Assembly (NCBI RefSeq): GCF_016592155.1
Contig: NZ_AP024237.1
Coordinates: 2,108,001-2,172,000 of the forward strand
From: Mycobacterium heckeshornense
Lineage (GTDB): Bacteria > Actinomycetota > Actinomycetes > Mycobacteriales > Mycobacteriaceae
DNA length: 64,000 nt
Reading direction: 5' to 3'
The notes below the pieces were generated by a model that searched no databases, had not been told where the DNA came from, and was given only the letters and a program-made list of their open reading frames with translations. Made by a program: the position numbers and the translations under genes. Below, in pieces: positions 56,737-64,000 of the stretch. The number at the start of each line of letters is the position of its first letter. Within the stretch, counting starts at the first letter, position 1.

Positions 56737-57213
56737 ATGAGCGAGCTGCATATCCCGGTGATCGACACCTTCGCGGGAGAGTATCTGTTCTTGTCGAACT
56801 TCGCGCCCGCACCGACGCCGCATCGTGGTTGGCTGTACCCGACCAGCGAGCACGCCTTCGCGGCCGCGAAGACACGAGACCCGGCTGCGGTGGCCGCGAT
56901 CCGCAATACCGACGATCCGGCCCGCGCCAAGCAGATCGGCCGTGCCGCGCCCTTGGTCGAGGGCTGGGAAGCCGGCGGCAAGTTCGCGGCGATGGAAGAG
57001 GTGGTCACGGCGAAGTTCGGCAACAATCCCGACCTGGCGCGCCGGCTGCTGGAGACCCAGGGCGTTCTGCTGGTGGAAGGCAACACCTGGCATGACCAGG
57101 TCTGGGGATCGTGCAGGTGCGACGAGCACTGCAACATCCCCGGCGCAAACGCGCTCGGTGTGATCTTGATGGCGGTGCGGCTGCGGCTGGCGGCGCAGCG
57201 CACCCCGGCTTGA
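56737..57213 (+). CDS. NADAR-domain protein (ADP-ribose related)
   Basis: 158 residues with the NADAR (DUF1768) signature: the start IDTFAGEYLFLSNFAPAP, YPTSEHAFAAAKT, and the end WHDQVWGSCRCDEH and GANALGVILMAVR. NADAR proteins hydrolyse N-glycosidic bonds in ADP-ribose-type molecules; some remove ADP-ribose from guanine in DNA, others act in riboflavin synthesis. No toxin partner (DarT type) is adjacent. The ATG at 56737 has GCGGAGG upstream; the longer frame from 56512 lies over prcA. I do not know of a counterpart at this place in M. tuberculosis. Confidence 0.88.
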   Translation: MSELHIPVIDTFAGEYLFLSNFAPAPTPHRGWLYPTSEHAFAAAKTRDPAAVAAIRNTDDPARAKQIGRAAPLVEGWEAGGKFAAMEEVVTAKFGNNPDLARRLLETQGVLLVEGNTWHDQVWGSCRCDEHCNIPGANALGVILMAVRLRLAAQRTPA

Positions 57214-57311
57214 ACCTCCCGGTAGCCAAGCGGCGAGCTCGTCGGCCGCGGGACGCGAACGACATCAACGGCTTTGGCCCGGAGCCCTTGTTGCCGAGAG
57301 TTCAAATCGGT

Positions 57312-57455
57312 GCTACCTTGCGGAAGCACCTCGTTAGGCGAGGCTTCTGGACGAACATAGGCCACTGATCTGACGACGTCGAGAGACGCCCAAGATCAGG
57401 ACAGATCTCCCCGGCTTAAGGGGTGGTCCCAAGTGGCTTTCCCGGCGCTGCGGGG
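57312..57455 (+). promoter_or_regulatory. M-box (ykoK) Mg2+ riboswitch
   Basis: The segment carries the conserved M-box core in order: CGTTAGGCGAGGCTTCT, ACGAACATAGGCCACTG, ACGACGTCGAGAGACGCCC, CAGATCTCCCCGGC, TTAAGGGGTGGTCCCAAGTG, GCTTTCCC. Pairing partners are intact (for example GATCTG/CAGATC and ACGTCGAGAGACG). M-box RNAs sense Mg2+ and usually control Mg2+ transport genes; in M. tuberculosis they precede Rv1535 and PE20. Here the next long gene is the Stealth protein at 57575. Ends are approximate. 57214-57311 shows nothing else. Confidence 0.9.
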
Positions 57456-57539
57456 ATACGTCGGCCAGTGCCAAAGCTCAACGTGTGAGGGCGATGTCGC
57501 CGCTCGACCGCGTTTGCGGTGCCCCTCTGTGTGCACGAA

Positions 57540-57578
57540 ATGACCGACATCGAGTACGGAAGGCAGGTGTTCCCATGA
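57540..57578 (+). CDS. Possible 12-residue leader ORF before the Stealth gene
   Basis: ATG at 57540 opens a short frame (MTDIEYGRQVFP) whose stop overlaps the ATG of the next gene (ATGA). No ribosome binding site is visible in front of it. It might couple translation of the Stealth gene to the riboswitch state, but chance is possible for so short a frame. Confidence 0.3.
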   Translation: MTDIEYGRQVFP

Positions 57579-59074
57579 CCAGCATGATCGACGTTCGCGT
57601 CGCCGGTTCAGCCGATGGGTTGCGCCTGACTCCGTATGAGGCGATGCGCCAGGACTTGCTGTTCATCCGCGGCGAGCTTGAGCGGGCGGGTATTCCGTTC
57701 CTGCTCATCCGCGGTGCCGACGGGCGGCCGGCACTCGTCGTTGACATTGCCCTTCGCGCCCGGGTCGCTGACGCGTTGATGGCGGCCTGCCTGGACGCGC
57801 CGCTGCGCGCGAAGATCCTCGACGGAACCGGGCGCCGCTCGGTGTATCTCGGCGACGGCTTGCTCTCAGTGGACTCGGACCCGCGGCTGCTGCGCGTGTT
57901 TCGTCGGCGCGAATGTCCGCGCTCCGGCATGCGTTACGGCGCTTCCGCCGGGGTGGAGTTACAGTTCTGGGTGTTCGACGGGCAGCACGCCATCTGCCCG
58001 ATCGAAAATTCGCTGACCCGCAAGACGTTGGCGCTCAGCGAGGTTGTGTACACCACCGTCGAATTGCACGGCCGCACCTGGCCGACGATCGCCGGGATGT
58101 TCACCCCGCATGCGGGCGACATCACGTTCGACATCGACATGGTTTTCTCCTGGGTGGACGGCAACGACCCGGAGTTCCGGGCGCGCCGCGCGGCGGCGAT
58201 GACGAATTATGTTGTCGGTGAAGGCGATGACGCCGACGCGCGGATCCGCCAGGTTGACGAACTGAAGTATGCGCTGCGCGCGGTGCATGCCTTCGCGCCG
58301 TGGGTGCGCCGGATTTTCATCGCGACCGACTCGCCGGTGCCCGAGTGGCTCGCGCCGCATCCAAAGATCACCATTGTGCGCGCCGACGAACACTTCACCG
58401 ACCCTTCTGTGCTGCCGGTGTACAACAGTCACGCGGTGGAGACTCAACTGCACCACATCCCCGGCCTGGCCGAACATTTCCTGTACTCCAACGACGACAT
58501 GTTCTTCGGCCGAGCGGTTTCGCCGGCGATGTTCTTCTCCCCGGGTGGCGTCACTAAATTCATCGAAGCGCCTACGCGAATCGGGCTCGGTGGCAACCAC
58601 CCGGAGCGCAGCGGTTACGAGAACGCGGCACGGGTCAACCGCCAACTGCTGTGGGACAGGTTCGGCAAGATCATCACCCGGCACTTGGAGCACACGGCTG
58701 TCCCGTTGCGCAAGAGCGTGCTGTTTGAACTCGAGCGCGAGTTTGCGGCCGACTTCGCCCGCACTCAGGCAAGCCGCTTCCGTTCCAGCACCGACATCTC
58801 GGTAACCAATTCGCTGTACCACTACTACGCGTTGATGACCGGGCGCGCGGTTCAAAACGAGGCGGCCAAGGTCCTCTACGTCGACACCACGTTGCGGTCG
58901 GGGCTGGCGAAACTGCCGAAACTGTTGAAGAAGCGCAAGTTTGACTTCTTCTGTCTCAACGACGGCAGCTTCCCAGAGGTCAGCGCCGAAGAGCGGGCAC
59001 AGGTCGTTGGCGAGTTCCTCGAACGCTACTTCCCGGTGCCGGCGCCGTGGGAACGAGCGGCCGCCGACGAGTAA
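57575..59074 (+). CDS. Stealth-family sugar-phosphate transferase (CpsY/Rv0806c-like)
   Basis: 499 residues with all four Stealth regions: CR1 ITFDIDMVFSWVDGNDPEF, CR2 VDELKYALRAVHAFAPWVRR and HFLYSNDDMFFG, CR3 (HLEHTAVPLRKSVLFELE, SRFRSSTDIS), CR4 FFCLNDGSF. These enzymes move hexose- or GlcNAc-1-phosphate onto capsule-type glycans. An N-terminal domain of about 180 residues precedes CR1. No membrane segment is evident. GGAAGG/AGG lies before the ATG. In M. tuberculosis the similar gene Rv0806c (cpsY) sits next to Rv0805; the same pairing is found here in a different genomic place. Confidence 0.88.
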   Translation: MTSMIDVRVAGSADGLRLTPYEAMRQDLLFIRGELERAGIPFLLIRGADGRPALVVDIALRARVADALMAACLDAPLRAKILDGTGRRSVYLGDGLLSVDSDPRLLRVFRRRECPRSGMRYGASAGVELQFWVFDGQHAICPIENSLTRKTLALSEVVYTTVELHGRTWPTIAGMFTPHAGDITFDIDMVFSWVDGNDPEFRARRAAAMTNYVVGEGDDADARIRQVDELKYALRAVHAFAPWVRRIFIATDSPVPEWLAPHPKITIVRADEHFTDPSVLPVYNSHAVETQLHHIPGLAEHFLYSNDDMFFGRAVSPAMFFSPGGVTKFIEAPTRIGLGGNHPERSGYENAARVNRQLLWDRFGKIITRHLEHTAVPLRKSVLFELEREFAADFARTQASRFRSSTDISVTNSLYHYYALMTGRAVQNEAAKVLYVDTTLRSGLAKLPKLLKKRKFDFFCLNDGSFPEVSAEERAQVVGEFLERYFPVPAPWERAAADE

Positions 59075-59078
59075 GACC

Positions 59079-59116
59079 TCCCAGCGGGCGGGCGCGCTGG
59101 ACCCCGCCCGCTGGGA
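59079..59116. terminator. Inverted repeat between convergent genes
   Basis: Perfect 14-bp stem (TCCCAGCGGGCGGG and its complement) with a 10-base loop, placed between the convergent Stealth and phosphodiesterase genes. Probably a two-way terminator; it lacks a T-tract, as is common in mycobacteria. Confidence 0.7.
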
Positions 59117-59117
59117 A

Positions 59118-60041
59118 TCACTCGCGACGCGCCAATTGCGGGGCGATGCGTGGTATCCGGGTGGCCGGCAGGATGCTTACCTGGGCGTCGGCCAGCTGAC
59201 GGCGGACGGCGTCCGGAGAAACGAACCGTCCCACTGTTGCTCCGGCGACCAGCGGAATGACAGTGTGCACCACCGTATCTGGGTAACAGTGCACGAGGTT
59301 GAACGCCTGCGCACCGTCACGGCCACGGGTTCCGGGCGTCAGCAGATCTTGGGTGTAACAGCTGGCCGAGGCCACCGACACCGGGATGCCGGCGAAAGTT
59401 GCTGTGGTGGAATAGTGCAGGTGCCCGGCAAGAATGCTGCGCACATCGCTGCCGCGAAGCACGTCGGCCAGTGCGGCTTGATCGCGCAGCTCCACCATGA
59501 CGGCCAGATCCTGCACGCAGGGAATCGGGGGGTGGTGCATCGCCAGCATGGTGCCGAAGGGAGCAGGTTCGGCCAGTTGATCGGCCAGCCATCGTAGCTG
59601 ATCCGGCGCGACCTGCCCGTGGTGATGGCCGGGAACCGATGTGTCCAACACGATCACACGCAAGCCCGCGACGTCGTGCACCCGGTCCATCGGCGTCATG
59701 GTTGGGGTCTCGCGCAGCAGATGTTCGCGCAGCGATGCCCGGTTGTCATGGTTGCCCATCACCCAAATGATCTGGGCGCCAAGACGATCGGCTAATGGCT
59801 CGACGAGTTCGCGCAATTTGAGGTAGGCACCGGGTTGACCCGTGTCGGCGAGGTCACCGGTGAAGATCAGTGCGTCCGGCCGAGTTTGGGAGGCTTCAAG
59901 CCGCAGCAGCAACTCAGCCAATCGCGCGTCTGCGTCGACGTCCCCGTACAGTTCGCCGTCGCCGGCCATCAAGTGGGTGTCGCTGATATGTGCGATAACG
60001 TGGTCAGGCCGCGAGTACTCCGCGACCCTGGGTCTGTCCAC
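59118..60041 (-). CDS. Cyclic-nucleotide phosphodiesterase-type metallophosphoesterase (Rv0805-like)
   Basis: 307 residues. Dinuclear metal-site motifs of the calcineurin-like family: [32 protein letters not shown] and LAGHLHYS. Closely similar to M. tuberculosis Rv0805, which hydrolyses cAMP (2',3' better than 3',5') and other phosphodiesters. The C-terminal extension after [13 protein letters not shown] is the part associated with the cell envelope in Rv0805. GTG start at 60041. Confidence 0.9.
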
Positions 60042-61939: not shown

Positions 61940-62992
61940 GTGGCGACTTCCAAAGTCGAACGGTTGACGAACCTCGTCATCGCATTGCTGTCCACCCGCG
62001 GCTACATCACCGCCGAAAAGATCAAGTCCACGGTCGCCGGCTACTCCGACAGTCCCAGCGACGAGGCGTTCTCCCGGATGTTCGAGCGCGACAAAAGCGA
62101 ATTGCGTGATCTCGGCATCCCGTTGGAGACCGGCAGGGTGTCGGCGCTGGACCCCACCGAGGGTTATCGCATTAACCGCGAGGCCTACGCGCTACCTACC
62201 GTCGAGTTGACCCCTGAGGAGGCCGCCGCGGTGGCGGTGGCAACCCGGTTGTGGGAGTCGCCGGAACTGATCACCGCAACCCAGGGTGCGTTGCTCAAAC
62301 TGCGTGCGGCCGGAGTGGACGTCGACCCCGACGCCCCGGTCGTGATTGCCTCGACCACCGGGCTGCCGGGCCTGCGCGGTTCGGAGAACGTGCTGGGGGT
62401 GCTGTTGGCGGCCATCGAGGCCGGGCAGGCCGTGCAGTTTCCGCACCGGCCGTCGCGCAGCGAGCCCTACACCCCCCGCACCGTCGAACCGTGGGGGGTG
62501 GTGACGCAGAAGGGCCGCTGGTATCTGGTCGGGCATGACCGCGACCGCGACGCCACCCGCGTGTTCCGGCTGTCCCGGATAGGTGCCGAGGTGAAGCCGA
62601 TCGGTCCGGTCGGCGTCGTCGTTCGGCCTGAGGGTGTCGACCTGCGCAAGATCGTTGCCGAGACCGTGGCCGAACCAATGACCGGTGCGCAGGCGCAAGT
62701 GTGGGTGGCCGACGGGCGCGCCATGGCGTTGCGGCGTGCCGGCAAATCCCTGGGGCCACGGCGATTGGGGGGCCGTGACGGCGAGGTGATCAAACTCGAC
62801 ATCGGATCCAGCGACCGACTCGCGCGTGAGATCACCGGCTACGGTGCTGACGCGGTCGTCCTCGCGCCGGCGTCGCTGCGAGACGACGTACTGGCCCGCC
62901 TGCAGGCCCAGGCCGTTCGGCGAGGAGCGGCGCCGGTGACGCGCGCCGGCGACGATGCAGAGCGACGCGATGAGGAGGAGCGGCGCCGATGA
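61940..62992 (+). CDS. pafB: WYL-domain transcriptional regulator PafB
   Basis: 350 residues. An N-terminal winged HTH (VERLTNLVIALLSTRGYITA...) is followed by a WYL domain (WGVVTQKGRWYLVGHDRDRDATRVFRLSRI) and a WCX C-terminal part. PafB and PafC form the DNA-damage-responsive activator that is independent of RecA/LexA. The last 18 residues (TRAGDDAERRDEEERRR end) are encoded by the first, variant unit of the 53-bp tandem array, so the tail comes from repeat DNA. GTG start. Confidence 0.93.
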   Translation: MATSKVERLTNLVIALLSTRGYITAEKIKSTVAGYSDSPSDEAFSRMFERDKSELRDLGIPLETGRVSALDPTEGYRINREAYALPTVELTPEEAAAVAVATRLWESPELITATQGALLKLRAAGVDVDPDAPVVIASTTGLPGLRGSENVLGVLLAAIEAGQAVQFPHRPSRSEPYTPRTVEPWGVVTQKGRWYLVGHDRDRDATRVFRLSRIGAEVKPIGPVGVVVRPEGVDLRKIVAETVAEPMTGAQAQVWVADGRAMALRRAGKSLGPRRLGGRDGEVIKLDIGSSDRLAREITGYGADAVVLAPASLRDDVLARLQAQAVRRGAAPVTRAGDDAERRDEEERRR

Positions 62993-63252
62993 CGCGCGCC
63001 GGCGACGATGCAGAGCGACGCGATGAGGAGGAGCGGCGCCGATGACGCGCGCCGGCGACGATGCAGAGCGACGCGATGAGGAGGAGCGGCGCCGATGACG
63101 CGCGCCGGCGACGATGCAGAGCGACGCGATGAGGAGGAGCGGCGCCGATGACGCGCGCCGGCGACGATGCAGAGCGACGCGATGAGGAGGAGCGGCGCCG
63201 ATGACGCGCGCCGGCGACGATGCAGAGCGACGCGATGAGGAGGAGCGGCGCC
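62922..63252 (+). repeat. MIRU-like 53-bp tandem array between pafB and pafC
   Basis: Six 53-bp units begin at 62935, 62988, 63041, 63094, 63147 and 63200, with a 13-base partial unit in front. By eye the last five are identical; the first differs at one base (GGTGAC for GATGAC). The core GACGATGCAGAGCG...GATGAGGAGGAGCGGCGCC is the motif of mycobacterial interspersed repetitive units, which are known to insert in ATGA stop/start overlaps. Here the insertion is exactly at the pafB/pafC overlap. Confidence 0.9.
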
Positions 63253-63257
63253 GATGA
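62989..63257 (+). other. Chain of five overlapping 18-residue mini-ORFs in the repeat array
   Basis: Each unit gives an ATG that opens MTRAGDDAERRDEEERRR and stops at a TGA overlapping the ATG of the next unit (ATGA). Frames: 62989-63045, 63042-63098, 63095-63151, 63148-63204 and 63201-63257, the last overlapping the pafC ATG. Each has AGGAGG about 10 bases before its start, so ribosomes could pass from pafB to pafC by repeated re-initiation. No protein function is implied. Confidence 0.7.
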
Positions 63258-64000
63258 CAGCCGTATCTACCCGCCTGGTGCGGTTGCTGAACATGGTCCC
63301 CTATTTCCAGGCCAATCCGCGGGTCACCCGCGCCAAGGCGGCAGCCGACCTCGGCGTCACCGTCAAACAACTGGAAGAAGACATCAATCAATTGTGGTTG
63401 TGCGGGCTACCGGGTTACGGACCCGGTGACCTGATTGACTTCGAATTCTGCGGCGACACAATCGAAGTGACGTTCTCGGCAGGCATCGACCGGCCGCTGC
63501 AACTGACTTCCCCGGAGGCCACCGGCCTCCTGGTGGCGCTGCGCGCACTGGCCGACGTCCCCGGCCTGGTGGATCCGGAGGCCGCGCGCAGTGCGATCGC
63601 GAAAATCGAATCGGCCGCCGGCACCGCCGCGCACGGCACCCATGCAGCGGCGGTCGAGGAGCCGGCGCCGGCCGAAAGCGAGGCCGCGGCCGCGGTTCGC
63701 ACCGCGGTACGCCGCAACTGCGCGCTGGCCATCGACTACTACTCCGCCTCCCGCGACACGCTGTCCAGCCGGATCGTCGACCCGATCCGGGTGCTGTTGA
63801 TCGGCGACCACAGCTACCTGGAGGCCTGGTCCCGGGAGGCTCAAGGGGTGCGGCTGTTCCGGTTCGACCGCATCGTCGAGGCCCGAGTGCTCGACGAGCC
63901 GTCCGCGCCCCCCGAACCCGCGGTCCAATCACCGCCGGACACCTCACTGTTCGACGCCGACCCGGCGCTTCCGTCGGCCACGCTGCGGGTGGCGCCGTCG
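63254..64000 (+). CDS. pafC: WYL-domain transcriptional regulator PafC, 3' end cut by window edge
   Basis: First 249 codons. N-terminal HTH region MTAVSTRLVRLLNMVPYFQA, AKAAADLGVTVKQLEEDINQL, then an Ala/Glu-rich linker and the WYL domain (CALAIDYYSASRDTLSSRIV, SYLEAWSREAQGVRLFRFDRI). It works as a pair with PafB. The ATG overlaps the last mini-ORF stop of the repeat array, and AGGAGG in the final repeat unit supplies its ribosome binding site. Confidence 0.93.
   Translation, partial: MTAVSTRLVRLLNMVPYFQANPRVTRAKAAADLGVTVKQLEEDINQLWLCGLPGYGPGDLIDFEFCGDTIEVTFSAGIDRPLQLTSPEATGLLVALRALADVPGLVDPEAARSAIAKIESAAGTAAHGTHAAAVEEPAPAESEAAAAVRTAVRRNCALAIDYYSASRDTLSSRIVDPIRVLLIGDHSYLEAWSREAQGVRLFRFDRIVEARVLDEPSAPPEPAVQSPPDTSLFDADPALPSATLRVAPS

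Follow-up and report, generated by a model that had tools for sequence, protein, structure and literature searches.

M-boxes are known as switches of metal transport genes, and in mycobacteria they are also found before PE/PPE genes. In the window analysed here, a stretch of 64,000 nucleotides of the Mycobacterium heckeshornense genome (NZ_AP024237.1, positions 2,108,001 to 2,172,000), an M-box stands in front of a gene for a Stealth-family protein. This raises the question of whether the riboswitch governs that gene and, if so, how magnesium and a surface glycan could be connected. An original prediction, made from the letters of the sequence alone, had described a complete M-box core followed by a CpsY-like Stealth gene and by no Mg2+ transporter. 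Papers are cited below by PMC number.

The M-box and the gene behind it

A search of the whole window for RNA families returned one M-box and two other families. The M-box (Table 1) was matched by RF00380 with 134.3 bits, where the gathering score is 44 (cmscan, E 1.1e-30), and the alignment runs over the full length of the model, from 1 to 169, which confirms the completeness of the predicted core. In the 11 homologous copies, 92.9% of the cells in the aptamer helices are standard pairs, a share that drops to 30.6-44.5% after sliding of the partner strand. Two-sided change is seen in four pairs versus 1.3 in shuffles, and one of 500 shuffles scored as high. The model's two outermost P1 positions are unpaired in all of these 11 Stealth-linked aptamers. 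A score above the gathering value, compensatory change in the helices and a sense position in the 5' leader identify the element as a member of the family. A metal transport gene is the usual target of an M-box, but it is no part of the RF00380 family definition.

Table 1. Features of the M-box and Stealth locus, in window coordinates
Feature	Position	Strand	Basis
Promoter-like element TTGCCG (57291-57296), 17 nt, TACCTT (57314-57319)	57291-57319	+	conservation
M-box (ykoK) Mg2+ riboswitch aptamer	57323-57496	+	RF00380, cmscan
Aptamer helix P1 3' strand CGUGUGAGGG, SD1-like / anti-anti-SD	57482-57491	+	RF00380 structure line
Candidate anti-SD segment CCCUC...GCACG	57523-57537	+	alignment pairing
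SD2 GGAAGGCAGGUG of the Stealth gene	57558-57569	+	leader conservation
Stealth (CpsY-type) predicted hexose-1-phosphate transferase, 499 aa	ATG 57575 to stop 59074	+	Pfam PF17101, PF11380, PF17102, PF17103
Inverted repeat CCCAGCGGGCGGG / CCCGCCCGCTGGG between convergent genes	59080-59115	.	read from sequence
Calcineurin-like phosphoesterase, convergent	59118-60041	-	PF00149

The next real gene proved to be CpsY-like, as had been proposed. Its product contains the regions Stealth_CR1, CR2, CR3 and CR4, all above the Pfam cut-offs, and the closest solved relative is CpsY of M. tuberculosis (PDB 8J2N; 563 bits over 314 residues). When the first residue of that structure is taken as CpsY 201, the CpsY residues E305, N322, D324 and R419 align with E289, N306, D308 and R403 of the window protein. 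CpsY activity fell 200- to 500-fold in the mutants E305A, N322A and D324A and was abolished in R419K and R419Q; the assay substrates were UDP-GlcNAc and glucan, Mg2+ or Mn2+ is stated as required, and a model puts Mg2+ at D324 (PMC10668966). Capsule polymerases with Stealth motifs have been described as joining sugars via phosphodiesters (PMC5974469). The window gene is under purifying selection, with dN/dS values of 0.07-0.14 against five relatives.

The predicted lack of a Mg2+ transporter behind the M-box was also borne out. The gene after Stealth is the convergent phosphoesterase, which ends 43 nt beyond the Stealth stop codon, and therefore Stealth is the sole gene that the M-box can serve here; neither a Mg2+ nor any other metal transport gene was found as a target downstream of it. 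The inverted repeat between the two convergent genes may be a two-way transcription end. A convergent gene follows Stealth in all 11 M-box loci. In the 10 mycobacterial loci this is the phosphoesterase, directly behind Stealth and with the pair set between prcA and pafA; a second Segniliparus genome has the same direct order, and in Segniliparus rugosus one LCM-domain gene separates Stealth from the phosphoesterase. No match to a proteasome gene was found within 18-19 kb around either Segniliparus Stealth locus. We take the phosphoesterase to be Rv0805-like, and the arrangement recalls the Rv0805-Rv0806c pair.

Two further observations concern the surroundings. A NADAR-domain gene (56737-57213) lies between prcA and the M-box in four of the 10 mycobacterial loci (the window, G186, G060 and G359). 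Farther downstream, at 62922-63258, a 53-bp unit is repeated 6.4 times with 99% matches, spanning the end of the ORF at 61940-62992, presumably pafB by its position, and the start of an ORF at 63254; the unit contains an ATG, and its length is not divisible by three.

Distribution and ancestry of the pair

A search with the Stealth protein across 396 genomes of the genus gave a match in 47, of which 10, the window included, were of the window type (at least 83% identity). The M-box was present directly upstream of the Stealth gene in all 10, and in none of the 10 next Stealth loci of the same run. With S. rugosus as an eleventh case, the recurrence of the pair that had been looked for in related mycobacteria was found. 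Of 80 loci in named genomes, 19 were examined: the M-box was present in the five closest to the window (those of M. kyorinense, Mycobacterium sp. SM1, two MAGs and S. rugosus), which are among the same 11 loci, and absent from the other 14. In the family-wide set it was found at the Stealth gene of S. rugosus and neither in the second Segniliparus genome nor at the other 35 loci, so that window-type Stealth genes of Segniliparus have it in one of two genomes. Over all 76 Stealth locus records, 16 carry an M-box, representing 11 distinct loci, and 60 do not; besides the second Segniliparus genome, none of the 59 other records, which are not all distinct, has one. Mycobacterial CpsY-type loci make up 30 of these 60 records, again not all distinct, and two of them (L042 and L140) include only about 170 nt before the start codon, too little to reveal an M-box.

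The Stealth M-box is the single match in the S. rugosus genome, and the second Segniliparus genome gave no M-box match at all. A VIT-family gene (L207:8034-9080) is divergent from the Stealth M-box of S. rugosus; the second Segniliparus locus lacks both this gene and the M-box, and there a TetR gene directly precedes Stealth.

The pair was also approached from the riboswitch side. Among 97 M-box loci with 1.5 kb flanks, a set that leans to high-scoring M-boxes and omits eight of the 11 Stealth-type loci, Stealth was found in three (the window, L004; L190; L201), all of the window type. Across the class, 26 of 394 scanned genomes proved to contain M-boxes, and a motif search, which may miss divergent copies, yielded 57 M-boxes, of which 48 distinct ones were kept. 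The M-boxes of small genomes, L191, L202 (G115), L227 and L229 (G075), reach only 72-95 bits and may be in decay.

In a midpoint-rooted protein tree, for which 127 of 139 sequences were kept after removal of identical ones, the proteins of the M-box group (10 mycobacterial and two Segniliparus tips) were sister to a mycobacterial CpsY group of 26 tips, with support of 1.0. The window protein is thus of a sister lineage to CpsY (Rv0806c, number from PMC11895460; 8J2N, PMC10668966), with the four CR regions and the catalytic residues common to both. Both lineages are present in the genomes G060 and G148, and G359 has a second, partial Stealth match that is outside the tree. A convergent phosphoesterase of like kind also neighbours the CpsY-type gene in G105 and G115; the examined CpsY-type loci, however, are without an M-box, and it is the window-type copy that lies between prcA and pafA. 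In another genus, a CpsY-like Stealth gene is followed, at a distance of about 1 kb, by a TPP riboswitch (L175:3961-4053).

In a tree built from the aptamers (90 tips), all 13 Stealth-linked tips (11 loci and two repeat rows) group together as a single clade with support of 1.0, which matches the Stealth protein clade. The nearest group, with support of only 0.66, is made up of five M-boxes from other mycobacterial genomes and one from another family (L243). The nearest aptamers are M-boxes that precede metal-transport genes in other mycobacteria, and the Stealth-linked aptamers share with them the stretch CTGATC(T/C)GACGACGTCGAGAGACGC; whereas the window M-box leads to Stealth, the four genes examined by Pfam behind these M-boxes are of the kinds P-type cation ATPase (L219, in the sister group), MgtC (L214), MgtE_N (L213) and Nramp (L216). 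The mycobacterial M-box types listed in PMC12810186 are pe20, Mn, rv1535 and mgtE, those of M. tuberculosis standing before pe20 and rv1535, and we take the nearest metal-transport M-boxes to be probably of the mgtE type.

The leader compared with other M-boxes

The host genome has four M-boxes in total. The other three precede, respectively, a PE gene with an Nramp gene farther downstream, an Nramp gene, and the gene of a short protein with a class I tRNA synthetase gene farther downstream, the last presumably ileS by its position. Behind SD2, all three have a conserved peptide of about 26 codons, which we read as the uORF2 described for M. tuberculosis (PMC12810186). Two very similar M-boxes were seen back to back, about 300 bp apart (G000:C1:2467976-2468617; L001, L145, L146), one before the PE gene with Nramp further on and the other before a second Nramp gene.

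In the Stealth leaders, the promoter-like element, the aptamer and the gene are collinear at all 11 loci. The element reads TTGCCG-17-TANCYT in the 10 mycobacterial loci, with 6 nt up to the aptamer's GCACC in every case, and is looser in S. rugosus (TTGCGC-17-TAGCGT, 7 nt to the aptamer). A generic sigma-70 scan of 57200-57700 reported no promoter, and a search for an intrinsic terminator in the leader found none. The motif GGAAGGCRGGUG is present at SD2 in all 10 mycobacterial leaders. The pairing between SD1 and the candidate anti-SD segment was retained in 99.0% of the cells of an alignment of 10 species, against at most 83.9% when slid, and that between the anti-SD segment and SD2 in 89.8% of cells, against at most 62.5%; two-sided changes numbered zero in the first helix and one in the second, neither above shuffles. 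RNAalifold recovered the SD1/anti-SD helix unprompted.

Two-state folding with penalties gave a mean SD2 accessibility of 0.33 in the closed and 0.31 in the open state, with the open state higher in six of 11 leaders. This procedure lacks power, because the three leaders of other classes in the host genome also departed from the prediction of the model (leader B higher in the open state, A and C lower). The alternative SD1/anti-SD/SD2 pairing of the pe20 type is compatible with the alignment, while two-state folding gave no difference.

The M. tuberculosis pe20 M-box (Rv1805A/PE20), as reported in PMC12810186, resembles the window leader in its RF00380 aptamer, an SD-like P1 3' strand, a pyrimidine-rich segment followed by a second SD, and the lack of an intrinsic terminator. 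It differs in what follows: in the window, SD2 serves Stealth itself, with no conserved uORF2, PE/PPE or transporter gene, and the window aptamer belongs to a clade apart from the sampled M-boxes that bear uORF2. Judged from these sequences, the Stealth-linked M-boxes would constitute a further, fifth mycobacterial class.

Proposed function of the riboswitch and alternative readings

Given the structure, the conservation, the position of the promoter-like element and the sole target described above, we consider it quite probable that this leader functions as an M-box riboswitch, has a promoter of its own and governs a transcript whose only gene is that of the CpsY-type Stealth protein; by analogy, this transcript would be raised at low Mg2+. 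As in the M-boxes studied so far, high Mg2+ would close helix P1 and bring Stealth expression down, and low Mg2+ would open P1 and bring it up. The freed P1 3' strand would then pair with the candidate anti-SD segment, so that the SD region of the Stealth gene would be released. By analogy, the platform would probably be translational plus Rho, the mode reported for the pe20 M-box of M. tuberculosis; the ykoK M-box of B. subtilis turns transcription off at high Mg2+ (PMC12810186).

The conservation of this pair in eleven related bacteria suggests that a surface sugar polymer may be altered in these cells under magnesium shortage. An envelope glycan rich in phosphate could retain Mg2+ at the cell surface. 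The original prediction had likewise tied glycan phosphate transfer to magnesium supply, as an inference from the Mg2+ binding of phosphodiester-linked polymers. Tentatively, and only as one possible reading, low Mg2+ might lead through the M-box to an envelope glycan that is decorated with GlcNAc-1-phosphate or linked by phosphodiesters and that would concentrate Mg2+ at the cell surface.

Low Mg2+ might instead be read as a cue of the environment, for example of a host vacuole, and time an envelope change unrelated to Mg2+ balance. A CO2/pH table of PMC11895460 gives values of 1.54 and 1.57 for cpsY of M. tuberculosis and includes rv1535 and corA as well, a weak hint of shared physiology, and the M. 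tuberculosis M-boxes before pe20 and rv1535 (PMC12810186) fit such a signal as well. The induction of cpsY is small, however, the link is indirect, and two of the five named carriers are MAGs; we regard this explanation as doubtful.

It is rather unlikely that the switch serves to compensate for a cofactor, raising a Mg2+-dependent phosphotransferase that loses activity as Mg2+ falls, with a polymer that has no part in Mg2+ supply. The requirement of CpsY for Mg2+ or Mn2+ and the Mg2+ modelled at D324 (PMC10668966), a residue kept as D308 in the window, speak for it. Nevertheless, very many enzymes that require Mg2+ have no M-box, as is generally known, and none of the 30 mycobacterial CpsY-type records, counted with the repeats and the two short records (L042 and L140) noted above, carries one.

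A leader peptide could also be the main object of control, like uORF2 elsewhere, with Stealth following, perhaps by translational coupling. The peptide behind SD2 in the other classes would be a precedent, and the window has a 12-codon ORF (57540-57578) that overlaps the Stealth ATG. The span of the original prediction, 57312-57578, encloses the M-box, and its end takes in this ORF. The window alone starts it with ATG; the same 12 codons recur in three of 10 relatives, with GTG in G060 and G250 and TTG in G186. Across the 11 leaders, the segment is an ORF ending on the Stealth ATG in four, is in frame with Stealth in three and is no ORF in four others, and no peptide, uORF2 behind SD2 included, is kept throughout. 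Because only four of 11 leaders have it, the 12-codon ORF was rated an unlikely target of coupled control. An N-terminally extended Stealth protein starting from GTG 57485 inside P1 was set aside too: the frame is open in the window, but from SD1 to the Stealth ATG a single frame exists in only five of 11 leaders, one of them interrupted by a stop, and the extension is out of frame or interrupted in seven of 11. Control exerted mainly on a leader peptide is accordingly very improbable.

That the M-box is a chance neighbour or a relic of rearrangement with no hold on Stealth, as its absence from the second Segniliparus genome might suggest, is extremely unlikely, as the promoter-like element, the spacing and the covariation are kept across 11 loci in two genera; by the sequence comparison, the link is conserved to a degree that neither chance nor the status of a relic would allow.

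Control of a single-gene Stealth transcript by the M-box thus remains the preferred reading. The Stealth gene is a new target class for the M-box. The Stealth-linked aptamers probably form a new sub-class within a known riboswitch family, and the system as such is not of a new kind. In the freely available literature, no paper was found that links an M-box or ykoK leader to a Stealth protein or a capsule phosphotransferase. The accessible text of PMC12810186, the contents of its Figure 1B aside, does not contain the word 'stealth' and mentions 'various transferases' behind rv1535-type elements, some of which might overlap with the present case, and the available passages of PMC3766115 hold no list of mycobacterial M-box targets.

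If the metal-trapping reading is true, a riboswitch would here govern a polymer that traps metal instead of a transporter. An M-box class with no conserved leader peptide helps to separate the effect of the aptamer from that of uORF2. The link between Mg2+ supply and a surface polymer becomes directly testable, and its presence across the clade offers a genetic handle on the unsettled role of Stealth/CpsY proteins in mycobacterial envelopes.
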